Shown one piece after another: positions 29,788 to 32,593 of a stretch of DNA of 34,091 nt. Source of the DNA: an uncultured Methanobrevibacter sp. (GTDB taxonomy: Archaea > Methanobacteriota > Methanobacteria > Methanobacteriales > Methanobacteriaceae); NCBI RefSeq assembly GCF_902801725.1, contig NZ_CADCJB010000018.1:1-34091 (forward strand). Direction: 5' to 3'. Positions within the stretch are counted from its first letter, which is position 1; every line of letters starts with the position of its first letter. The position numbers and the translations under genes are program-made. Below the pieces are notes generated by a model. The model was not told where the DNA came from, ran no database searches, and saw only the letters and a program-made list of their open reading frames with translations.

Positions 29788-30684
29788 TTATTTAGCGTTT
29801 TCACCTAATGCTTTTGCAAGAGCAGGAGTTGCATCAATTCTTTGAGCATCAAATGTTAACTCTTCTGGGGATAAGCCCATAGCTAATCCGTATAATTGAG
29901 CTAAGTGGAATACAGGAAGTGCAAAGTCAGTTCCGTATTTTTCATTAACTTCAACTTGTCCTTGGTCAAATTGTAAGTGACAGAATGGACATACGTTAAC
30001 AATTGCATCTACTCCAGCTTCGGTCATGTGATCAAGTTTTTCTTTGGTGAAACTAGTAGTTACATCAAGGTCTCTGGATCTTAAACCTCCACCTGCACCA
30101 CAGCACATCATTTTGTCTTTGTAATCTACAGATTTAGCACCGGTAATTTCAACGAGGTCATCTAAGATAGATGGGTTTTCTGCGTTGTCTTCGATACCGA
30201 TTTCATCAGTAGGTTTTAAGAAGTGGCAGCCGTAGTGTACTGCAACATTTAAGTCTAAAGGTTTTTCAATTAATGAAGCTAATTTTTCAAATCCTACATC
30301 GTCTCTTAAGATTTGAGCAAAGTGTTTTACGTTGGTAGTTCCTTTGAATTCTCTTCCAACTTCTGCTAAGTTAGCGTTGATTTTTGCTTTTTTGTCTTCA
30401 TCTTCTTTTAACATGTGGTTACATTCGAATAATGAACCGAAACATCCGTTACATTCGGTCATGATGTCAGCACCCATGTCTTCAGCAATAGTTAAGTTAC
30501 GAGCTGCAATGGTAGCCCAGGTTTCTTCATCAAAAGAACCAAATACACCAGGAGCAGGACAACAAGATGCTCCTTCCATATCTTTTAATTCAATATCTAA
30601 AGCTTCAAATAATTTTCTGGTAGCTTTTTCAACACCAGGATAACGGTTGTTCATGATACAACCTAAGAAGTATGCAATTTCCAT
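29788..30684 (-). CDS. hdrB: CoB--CoM heterodisulfide reductase subunit B
   Basis: 298 residues, the catalytic subunit that reduces CoM-S-S-CoB, in the soluble HdrABC complex with MvhADG hydrogenase. Two CCG motifs hold the noncubane [4Fe-4S] clusters: C9-x31-C41-C42-x35-C78-xx-C81 and C153-x40-C194-C195-x36-C232-xx-C235. All cysteines are present and length is normal. TAGGAGAG precedes the ATG. It lies 21 bases after hdrC in one transcript that ends with tandem hairpins. HdrA is not in this window. Confidence 0.97.
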   Translation of the reverse strand: MEIAYFLGCIMNNRYPGVEKATRKLFEALDIELKDMEGASCCPAPGVFGSFDEETWATIAARNLTIAEDMGADIMTECNGCFGSLFECNHMLKEDEDKKAKINANLAEVGREFKGTTNVKHFAQILRDDVGFEKLASLIEKPLDLNVAVHYGCHFLKPTDEIGIEDNAENPSILDDLVEITGAKSVDYKDKMMCCGAGGGLRSRDLDVTTSFTKEKLDHMTEAGVDAIVNVCPFCHLQFDQGQVEVNEKYGTDFALPVFHLAQLYGLAMGLSPEELTFDAQRIDATPALAKALGENAK

Positions 30685-30705: not shown

Positions 30706-31665
30706 TTATTCTTTTAATCCACCGGTTGATTCATCGTAACCGATTAATTCGTCAAATCCAGTAAGTTTACAAATTTTTTGTACTTCTTCTAATGCTTCAG
30801 GATAAGCGTGAGTGGTTGGTGGAATTTCAGCAAGACCGATTTTAGCTCTTAAAGCTTTTGTAGCATCGTTGATTGGTACACCGTGACCGGTATTCATTAC
30901 AAATACACCAGTCATTTTGTGAGGTTTTGCCATGTAACCAGCGTGAGCTGCAATGTTACGTGCTTTTTTGATAATTTCCACAATTTTAACACTTCTGAGA
31001 CATCTTTCTTGGCAAGTGTAACAGGTAGTACACATCCATAAAGCGTCATCAGCAATAACTTCTTCTTTTAATCCTAATAAACATTTTCTGACAATTTGTC
31101 TTACTTTGTATGGAGTCCTTCTTCCAGATGGACAACTTCCACTACAAGTACCACATTGGAAACAGTGTTTAACAGTTTCGATTCCAGCATCGATGAACTC
31201 AGCAGTGAAATCTGGGTCACGATTACTATCATTTAATAATTCTTTATCAGTTAATAAAGTCATATTATCTCCTTTTGTATCTTTGTTTGATTTTTCTTCA
31301 ACTTTTTGTTTAACATCCTCTTCAATAATCTCAATAGTCTCTTTGACTTTTTCTTTGATTTCATGAAGTTTTTCAACTTTTTCCTCTAAAGGATTTTCCT
31401 TTATTTCGGGAAGTTCCTCAACAACTTCTTCGTCTTCAGTTTCGATGTCACTCAAAGTTAAATCTTTTTTATCATCTTTTGGTTCTTCTTTTACTGTATT
31501 TTCTCTAGGAACAGTAGTTTTAGTACCAGAGACGACATCATCATTTACAACTTTTGAAGATGTAACTTCGACATCATCAGATGTGTTTGAAACATCAGTC
31601 TTGATGTCTTCTACATTTTTATTTTCTCCTTTAAATAGAGTTTTAAGACGATTTATAATAGACAT
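30706..31665 (-). CDS. hdrC: CoB--CoM heterodisulfide reductase subunit C with 134-residue N-terminal extension
   Basis: 319 residues from the ATG at 31665. The last 185 residues are a complete HdrC starting MTLLTDKELL, the length of ordinary methanogen HdrC. It carries electrons from HdrA to HdrB through two [4Fe-4S] clusters: CFQCGTCSGSCP (C34, C37, C40, C44 of this part) and CTTCYTCQERCL (C78, C81, C84, C88), where the usual Pro after the last cysteine is Leu. The 134 residues before it are unusual: an amphipathic start (MSIINRLKTLFKGE), a Ser/Thr/Asp-rich stretch and a Glu/Lys-rich coiled coil. They have their own ribosome-binding site (GAGGTG, 31674-31679) and TATA box (about 31737). The canonical ATG at 31263 also has a perfect site, so both forms may be made. 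Confidence 0.9.
   Translation of the reverse strand: MSIINRLKTLFKGENKNVEDIKTDVSNTSDDVEVTSSKVVNDDVVSGTKTTVPRENTVKEEPKDDKKDLTLSDIETEDEEVVEELPEIKENPLEEKVEKLHEIKEKVKETIEIIEEDVKQKVEEKSNKDTKGDNMTLLTDKELLNDSNRDPDFTAEFIDAGIETVKHCFQCGTCSGSCPSGRRTPYKVRQIVRKCLLGLKEEVIADDALWMCTTCYTCQERCLRSVKIVEIIKKARNIAAHAGYMAKPHKMTGVFVMNTGHGVPINDATKALRAKIGLAEIPPTTHAYPEALEEVQKICKLTGFDELIGYDESTGGLKE
31269..31276 (-). promoter_or_regulatory. Internal ribosome-binding site for canonical-length HdrC
   Basis: Minus strand AAAAGGAG, then five bases and the in-frame ATG at 31263 that starts the family-length HdrC (MTLL...). It lies inside the longer ORF and is among the strongest such sites in the window. Confidence 0.75.
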
Positions 31666-31731
31666 TGAAAACACACCTCGGATAATCATTGGATAATTTC
31701 CTCAAATCCTTACTAATATTCTTTAAAGAAA

Positions 31732-31742
31732 CATATATAAAG
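31732..31742 (-). promoter_or_regulatory. TATA box of the hdrCB operon
   Basis: Minus strand CTTTATATATG, about 72 bases before the ATG of the extended hdrC. The expected start would leave a leader of roughly 46 bases that contains GAGGTG. Confidence 0.6.
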
Positions 31743-31762: not shown

Positions 31763-31781
31763 TGTAATCCAAAAGATTACA
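31763..31781. promoter_or_regulatory. Palindrome between divergent promoters of hdrCB and the ArcS-like gene
   Basis: TGTAATC (31763-31769), CAAAA, GATTACA (31775-31781): a perfect 7-bp inverted repeat. It lies between the hdrC TATA box and a TATA-like TTTTATAAACC on the plus strand (about 31794-31804). The position suits an operator for one or both genes; no regulator is identified. Confidence 0.45.
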
Positions 31782-31849: not shown

Positions 31850-32593
31850 ATGATAAAAAAATTCGAAATCAAATCACATGACGGACCTGGAAGAATTGGA
31901 AAAATCGATGAAAAACTGACTCCAAAAATATTCTATAGAAGCGATTTAAAAATCGCACCGAATGAAGGATCAGCATACAATATTGACCGAGAAATTGCAG
32001 AGTTCAATGTAAATGAAACTTTAAGATTGGCTGAAGAGAACGTGGATGATGCAGACATTGCAGTAATTCAGGGTTCCAAATACATTGATTTGAGAATTGA
32101 ATGCATGAAAAGCCTGGAGGAAATTGGTTACAACGGATTTATTATTGCCAATGGAGATGCACTCCTAACAAATCCAAAAGAATTGGTTGAATTAGTCGTT
32201 TCACTTAAAAAAGAAGCACAAAAAACAAGTTATTTTATTTTTTCATTTGCAGAACTTTCATTCATGCCTATTTTAACATATATGGGAATCGATGGCTTTT
32301 TAGCTGATTCAACAAATTACTACAGTCATTTGAATGTTTTGCAAACACCAACAAAATCATACGATTTGAATACATATCCGATTTATGAAAATGTTTCTCA
32401 AAAACAGCTGGAGAAAATGAACATTGAGAATATGGAATTTGTGATAAAAGAAATCCATGCTCATATGAAAAATAATTCCCTGAGAAATCTGGTTGAAGAG
32501 AGATCAGGAACAACACCTCAAAACATTTCAACCCTAAAGATACTCGACAGGACACAAATGGACTATCTGCTTGAATACACTCAATTATTTTAA
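31850..32593 (+). CDS. ArcS-like tRNA-guanine transglycosylase-fold protein, N-terminal part only
   Basis: 247 residues resembling the N-terminal TGT-like domain of archaeosine synthase ArcS (TgtA2). It opens with FEIKSHDGPGRIGKI...LTPKIF and ends with NNSLRNLVEERSGTTPQNISTLKILD, as in ArcS at the end of that domain. The second half of ArcS, with the PC-x3-KPY-x2-S-x2-H motif required for activity and a PUA domain, is absent; the stop is followed by an unrelated opposing gene. It may be half of a split ArcS, an inactive paralogue, or a distinct enzyme. A ribosome-binding site (AAAGGA) lies about ten bases before the ATG. Its end overlaps the opposing PsbP-like gene by nine bases. Confidence 0.72.
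   Translation: MIKKFEIKSHDGPGRIGKIDEKLTPKIFYRSDLKIAPNEGSAYNIDREIAEFNVNETLRLAEENVDDADIAVIQGSKYIDLRIECMKSLEEIGYNGFIIANGDALLTNPKELVELVVSLKKEAQKTSYFIFSFAELSFMPILTYMGIDGFLADSTNYYSHLNVLQTPTKSYDLNTYPIYENVSQKQLEKMNIENMEFVIKEIHAHMKNNSLRNLVEERSGTTPQNISTLKILDRTQMDYLLEYTQLF

Follow-up and report, generated by a model that had tools for sequence, protein, structure and literature searches.

An in-frame N-terminal extension and a conserved internal start in the hdrC gene of Methanobacteriales

The hdrC gene of Methanobacteriales is probably a nested two-start gene, in which one mRNA would give rise to both a soluble and a membrane-tethered HdrC; we hold this reading with moderate confidence. The gene was analysed in a 34,091-nucleotide stretch of DNA from an uncultured Methanobrevibacter sp. 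(hereafter the window) and compared with its homologues in related genomes. In the window the canonical 185 residues of HdrC are preceded on the minus strand by 134 residues in the same reading frame, as the first-pass annotation of this DNA had claimed, and the same frame is kept in most relatives. At the level of DNA, the comparison shows that the long frame is conserved as a coding sequence and that both starts and the N-terminal helix are conserved.

The hdrC locus and the spread of its extension

The window gene was identified as hdrC by the equivalog model TIGR03290 (NCBIfam), which is matched above its cut-off of 160 bits at residues 165-308, covering the whole model (1-144), and by the adjoining hdrB (Table 1). 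The same protein scored below the cut-offs of the models for ferredoxin-dependent HdrC (NF041890, 54.8 against 270 bits; NF041779, 57.9 against 350 bits). The internal ATG at 31263 corresponds to residue 135 of the 319-residue frame and is the first of the 185 HdrC residues; the Shine-Dalgarno (SD) sequence AAAAGGAG, which the first-pass annotation had placed five bases from the canonical ATG, was found at exactly this spacing. The TATA box and ribosome-binding site (RBS) that it had assigned to the long start were likewise located 5' of 31665, as TTTATATA and GAGGTG. Another in-frame ATG lies eight codons 5' of 31665 in the window and is used by 327-residue database records, and some in-frame Met precedes the long start in 51 of 108 loci; position 31665 is favoured as the long start because its Met, SD and downstream motif are the conserved elements. 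The divergently oriented neighbour on the plus strand (31850-32593) encodes 247 residues, whose match to archaeosine synthase ArcS is confined to the initial part of that protein (65.3 bits against a cut-off of 440).

Table 1. Features of the hdrC locus in the window
Feature	Position	Strand	Description
hdrC, long frame	30706..31665	minus	319 aa; ATG at 31665, stop 30708-30706
Canonical HdrC	30706..31263	minus	185 aa; internal ATG at 31263; TIGR03290 233.9 bits
N-terminal extension of hdrC	31264..31665	minus	134 codons
N-terminal amphipathic helix MSIINRLKTLFK	31630..31665	minus	motif in 107/108 loci; muH 0.57
Acidic low-complexity linker	31264..31626	minus	net charge -19 over 121 residues
SD GAGGTG of the long start	31674..31679	minus	ends 8 bases before long ATG
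SD AAAAGGAG of the internal start, within the reading frame	31269..31276	minus	ends 5 bases before internal ATG
TATA box TTTATATA	31734..31741	minus	starts 76 bases 5' of long ATG
Palindrome TGTAATCTTTTGGATTACA, possible operator	31763..31781	minus	conserved at same place in relatives
hdrB, directly 3' of hdrC	29788..30684	minus	TIGR03288 494.2 bits, cut-off 345.15

A search with the 185-residue core matched 126 of 150 Methanobacteriales genomes (115 of 138 in the family-only search). The DNA 5' of the core was taken from 122 of the 126 matching genomes, giving 123 loci; G020, G031, G063 and G077 were left out, as their 5' end is missing at a contig edge. The 24 genomes without a match to hdrC include G122, G138 and G147 (94-99% completeness; identified by subtraction). 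Two of these, G122 and G147, are rated 99% complete, though a long HdrC (P0147) is present in the protein database. One metagenome-assembled genome, G058, carries two hdrC copies (L005 and L125) with 98% and 88% identity to the window core, which could be contamination or duplication.

Long starts, called with a profile of the first 15 residues, were found in 108 of the 123 loci, representing 107 of 122 genomes, and were absent in 15 loci. The extension varies in length from 71 to 202 residues, with 59 distinct values among the 108 loci, and typically begins with the consensus M-S-[IVLM]-[ILF]-x-R-L-K-x-[LM]-[FLI]-x-G. The long ATG is preceded within 20 bases by GGTGTG in 101 of 108 loci, and the internal ATG, followed by TLL, SLL or TIL, is kept in all 123. 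Conserved are the N-terminal helix, the character of the linker and the internal start. The 15 short-only loci belong to 13 genomes of group g12, to G096 and to G002; we take g12 to be Methanosphaera, partly from its missing Eha and not from a record name. The extension occurs in all three families sampled, and since it is present in all 10 analysed genomes of the two families other than that of the window, it was probably present in the ancestor of Methanobacteriales. Outside the order, the helix motif was found in frame before the core in none of 12 loci. One Thermoplasmata locus (L109, from a metagenome-assembled genome) carries about 136 unrelated residues, rich in Thr and Pro and without the helix motif, in frame before HdrC.

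Coding extension, promoter and the two starts

In each of the 108 long loci the long frame continues into HdrC without a stop codon. Both alternative frames of the extension are interrupted in every one of them (mean 6.5 and 27.3 stops), and base-shuffled extensions were open in 0 of 2160 trials. Ratios of dN/dS, calculated from ungapped blocks and from pairs that are not independent, were 0.20, 0.10 and 0.12 for helix codons 2-13 in g1 (53 loci), g19 (7 loci) and g8 (5 loci), with weaker constraint in g9 (0.42, 12 loci) and g13 (0.57, 6 loci). The core gave 0.05-0.08 in g1, g9, g13 and g19, and in g1, g9 and g13 the helix ratio was at least three times the core ratio. The 'core' and 'coreN' values of g8 (1.22 and 4.53) look like an indel artefact and were discarded. 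Translation of the long frame, as far as it can be judged from these patterns, is close to certain.

Among the 108 loci, 102 have the TATA box TTTATATA between -110 and -40 relative to the long ATG; a scan limited to this TATA form found it inside the extension in none of the 108, and a second promoter within the extension was rejected on this ground. Since the sole TATA box found is 5' of the long start, one mRNA with internal initiation is the simplest reading for two forms. The palindrome begins 40 bp 5' of the start of the TATA box, 116 bases 5' of the long ATG, and is of the type TGTAACCT-NNN-AGGTTACA. It was detected at a score of at least 19 in 104 of 122 loci, against 2 of 122 shuffled controls, and is present in short-form genomes too; it is a likely operator of hdrCB. 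The same palindrome was seen about 350-450 bases 5' of hdrA in 2 of 12 genomes examined (L240 in G019 and L242 in G000, the window's own included), which suggests that some members of the order have a common regulator of their hdr genes.

Codon usage is constrained at the putative SD ahead of the internal ATG. Glu at codon -4 is encoded by GAG in 44 of 44 cases (585 of 3581 elsewhere in the extensions), Arg by AGG in 14 of 14 (14 of 104 AGR codons elsewhere), and Lys by AAG in 29 of 45 (209 of 1774 elsewhere), the remaining 16 Lys codons being AAA, every one of them followed by GG. At codon -4 conservation is highest at the wobble base (entropy 0.77 versus 1.19 and 1.58 for the other two bases), which in the core is the least conserved (1.31 versus 1.03 and 0.96). 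This reversal is clearest against the core, because the linker control (-40 to -11) has similar entropy at all three positions (1.50, 1.37 and 1.45). The constraint spans several genera with differing residues at codon -4 (E, K, R, V). In short-only genomes the same bases are non-coding and provide the sole RBS, which reads AAGAGAGAT in G096 (fuller form AAAAAAGAGAGATAATATG), AAGAGTGAT in G002 (fuller form AAGAGTGATGACATG) and GGAGTGA in g12 (TGGAGTGAAAAAATG or TGGAGTGAAAATATG).

The codon-choice test, the more telling of the two, was applied after a mixed outcome of a test of duplex energy, in which the anti-SD letters were assumed. Across all loci the duplex was stronger than the reshuffled mean in 48 of 108, with p<0.05 in 15 of 108; among other in-frame Met codons, used as controls, 7 of 437 reached this level. 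Relative to synonymous reshuffles, pairing was stronger in g4, g12 and g14-g19 (median p 0.003-0.054) and leaned the same way in g2, g3, g9 and g11 (0.08-0.22); no excess was found in g1, g5, g6, g7, g8, g10 and g13. In g1, the genus of the window, the value was -3.81 against -3.89 for reshuffles (56 loci), so that the case for an internal SD in Methanobrevibacter rests on codon choice and on the homologous short-only genomes.

Losses of the extension were mapped on a quick maximum-likelihood tree of the cores, comprising 119 of 123 rows, with four 3'-truncated loci left out. The fewest state changes correspond to three losses, in g12 after the branching of G119, in G002 and in G096, and all three lineages keep the internal start. 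In G096 (L132) inspection of the DNA by eye revealed a copy of the long start region with altered SD and ATG and an intact internal start; a profile scan in three frames detected no helix remnants above threshold in the 15 short loci. Because the extension was lost there and the internal start left intact, the short form seems sufficient in some lineages, and the long form dispensable. The prediction of two HdrC forms in the first-pass annotation is largely supported: the codon constraint at the internal SD and the three losses that keep the internal start speak for it, and the duplex-energy test in g1 does not. On these patterns, internal initiation is very likely.

Helix, linker and the likeness to SepF

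The amphipathic helix proposed in the first-pass annotation was recovered both as a motif (Table 1) and in an AlphaFold2 model based on 37 sequences (mean pLDDT 60.2, pTM 0.46). In this model residues 2-11 are helical, 13-91 are disordered, and a weak helix spanning 92-125 leads to the folded core. The pLDDT averages 69 over residues 1-10, is below 50 for 13-91 and is about 50 for 92-125. The coiled coil of the first-pass annotation was not borne out: it corresponds to the low-confidence helix at 92-125, in a linker that varies between relatives, and is no conserved feature. The net charge of the linker is negative in 102 of 108 loci, with a median of -31, and is not negative in the other 6. 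R6, L7 and K8 are invariant in the 37-sequence alignment, and over the 108 loci they are found in 92, 104 and 104, respectively. The helical moment averages 0.53 versus 0.33 for composition shuffles, individual sequences reaching p<0.05 in just 10 of 107, and the window helix exceeds 23 other N-termini tested in the window, the highest of which has muH 0.47.

The helix resembles that of SepF from the same organisms. SepF was found in four of five genomes searched, and three of these proteins begin MGFTDNLKRSLGF, MGFTDALKRSLGF or MSFTDNLKKSLGF. The HdrC of G042 begins MSIIDNLKSLFKR; G042 also carries the SepF of Methanobrevibacter smithii and was taken as that species because its SepF matches the published peptide and length. 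The values of muH are 0.49-0.69 in four HdrC examples and 0.39-0.45 in three SepF helices. The M. smithii SepF has been described as consisting of an amphipathic helix (residues 1-12), a flexible linker and a core, and its helix binds vesicles with an affinity of about 43 uM (PMC8178401). By analogy, membrane tethering by the HdrC helix is likely.

In the window's genome, a search with the extension as query found only itself. A degenerate DNA pattern covering codons 1 to 10, with one mismatch allowed, gave 25 matches in 9 genomes, of which 7 were hdrC; the reversed control gave 17. Among the 18 other matches, 11 were inspected, and ten proved to be short frames and one to lie inside a longer frame. 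No wider protein family sharing the anchor of HdrC emerged, and this candidate was dropped.

Two proposed forms of HdrC, rival readings and known systems

In the proposed mechanism, one promoter would produce one hdrC mRNA. Translation from the upstream start would give a long HdrC, in which an N-terminal amphipathic helix (about 12 residues) and a flexible linker (about 60-190 residues, mostly acidic) precede the complete HdrC, and translation from the internal SD start would give the classical 185-residue protein. Both would assemble with HdrA and HdrB. The short form would serve the soluble bifurcating complex, and the long form would anchor some of the Hdr-hydrogenase complexes at the cytoplasmic membrane, much as FtsZ is held there by SepF. 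Such a tether would keep the turnover of heterodisulfide and ferredoxin close to enzymes of the membrane, for instance Mtr, Eha or Ehb. We infer internal initiation and lipid binding of the helix; the choice of a membrane partner for long HdrC is speculative.

The extension is also present in the model organism Methanothermobacter marburgensis. A 317-residue HdrC of this species in the database (P0127) is identical to the long frame of locus L197, for which reason its genome (G142) was taken as M. marburgensis, and residues 133-317 of P0127 are identical to the 185-residue chain of PDB 8rvu. A 322-residue HdrC (P0147) is encoded on a 1751429-base Methanothermobacter contig, and 185-residue versions are also in the database (P0164). 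PDB 8rvv comprises 183 residues, starting at Thr2 of the short form, which may be only the modelled range. The structures are consistent with either the presence or the absence of the long form, because a disordered extension would hardly be visible in cryo-EM. N-terminal sequencing of the M. marburgensis HdrC was reportedly performed by Hedderich et al. HdrABC in Methanothermobacter has been described as cytoplasmic (PMC3087415), and proteomic intensities of HdrC have been published for nickel-limited cells, the available part of that source mentioning no two forms (PMC12350162). No description of an N-terminal extension or long form of HdrC was found in the available portions of open-licence papers. 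On contig 7 of G000 (33764-36302), a second, distant HdrA-like gene (41% identity) lies close to an HdrC-like match (29%), and the pair is possibly a paralogous Hdr-type cluster.

Both forms could be made and the helix could nevertheless dock on a protein partner, such as a subunit of Mtr, Eha, Ehb or MCR, rather than on lipid, with the linker as a leash. The conservation of R6, L7 and K8 may reflect a binding site just as readily as a lipid helix. There is also a hint of co-occurrence with Eha: of the 15 genomes without the extension 14 lack EhaA (PF17367), as do 9 of the 107 that carry it, 11 of the negatives being derived by subtraction. However, only three losses lie behind these counts, two without EhaA and one (G096) with it, and G119 has kept the extension without EhaA; Eha as the partner of the helix was retained as a hint only. 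FwdC (TIGR03122) and MtrA (PF04208) did not separate extension-bearing from extension-less genomes. For Methanosphaera cuniculi, a published table includes Ehb but no Eha (PMC5563889). The pattern and moment of the helix match those of a measured membrane helix, that of SepF, and docking on a protein is accordingly considered unlikely, if deserving of attention.

Three further readings were weighed. In the first, translation would yield the long protein alone; the 185-residue form would come from proteolytic cleavage, inside the cell or later, or from annotation, and the codons would resemble an internal SD by coincidence. This would agree with the many NCBI records that carry the long frame and with the failure of the duplex-energy test in g1. 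The reading is improbable in view of the wobble constraint at codon -4, which recurs in several genera with different amino acids, of the short-only genomes, which begin at exactly the internal ATG with the same RBS, and of duplex energies well above reshuffles in g4, g12 and g14-g19. The extension might instead be a translated leader that times or couples the translation of short HdrC and yields a long product without a role, as its poorly conserved linker sequence and length would allow; yet a leader normally has its own stop codon, the frame runs open into HdrC throughout, and the N-terminal helix is conserved as protein, so that we give this reading very little credence. An untranslated leader, with the 185-residue form alone being made, would fit the deposition of the M. 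marburgensis HdrC structure as 185 residues, or 183 from Thr2 in 8rvv. It is scarcely conceivable with the coding frame alone open in all 108 loci, the helix under purifying selection and an SD conserved before the long ATG. The first-pass annotation had named comparison across relatives as a check on this last reading, and because the frame, the helix and both SD-like starts are kept in most of the order, the lack of conservation expected of such a leader was not observed at the level of sequence.

The two-start reading is therefore retained, and a wider version of it is put forward tentatively, as quite possible. Most Methanobacteriales would maintain free and membrane-leashed Hdr populations from one gene, placing turnover beside the ion-pumping Eha, Ehb and Mtr, and this arrangement would be ancestral, overlooked, and relaxed in Methanosphaera after the loss of Eha. 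If true, it would concern a previously overlooked spatial organisation of methanogenesis in cytochrome-free methanogens. The Hdr-Mvh complex of Methanothermobacter serves as a model of flavin-based electron bifurcation. If a membrane-leashed HdrC is made in this model organism as well as in methanogens of the gut and rumen, this would bear on how the enzymes of cytochrome-free methanogenesis get near the membrane. In nickel-depleted cultures 50-70% of MCR has been placed close to the membrane, M. marburgensis being named for this effect (PMC3596918).

Among known systems, the archaeal SepF of M. smithii, a membrane anchor of FtsZ, is similar to the long HdrC in having an N-terminal helix in the first 12 residues, a flexible linker and a folded core. 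The two share a similar helix pattern in the same genomes, and no homology of cores or helices is claimed. Lipid binding has been measured for the SepF helix alone, to which the HdrC helix is likened by pattern and moment; long HdrC may work like a helix-linker-core tether of the SepF type without being a member of that group. The HdrC of the HdrABC-MvhAGD complex of M. marburgensis (PDB 8rvu) has the same 185-residue core, with hdrB adjoining, and its own gene carries the extension; the long HdrC would add a helix and a linker to it.

In-frame internal starts that yield long and short proteoforms are known from CheA, IF2 and ClpB, whose genes have one mRNA, one frame and two SD sites, the short form being without an N-terminal module; hdrC would share this pattern. 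In hdrC, by contrast, the extra module resembles a membrane tether on a central catabolic enzyme, and the arrangement spans most of an archaeal order. The HdrDE of Methanosarcina is membrane-bound through an integral cytochrome subunit and uses methanophenazine. Heterodisulfide reduction would sit at the membrane in both cases, although the proposed long HdrC would be a peripheral tether only, without such redox coupling. Two-start genes and helix-linker membrane tethers are thus known kinds; what would be new in hdrC is a tethered and a free form produced by internal initiation.
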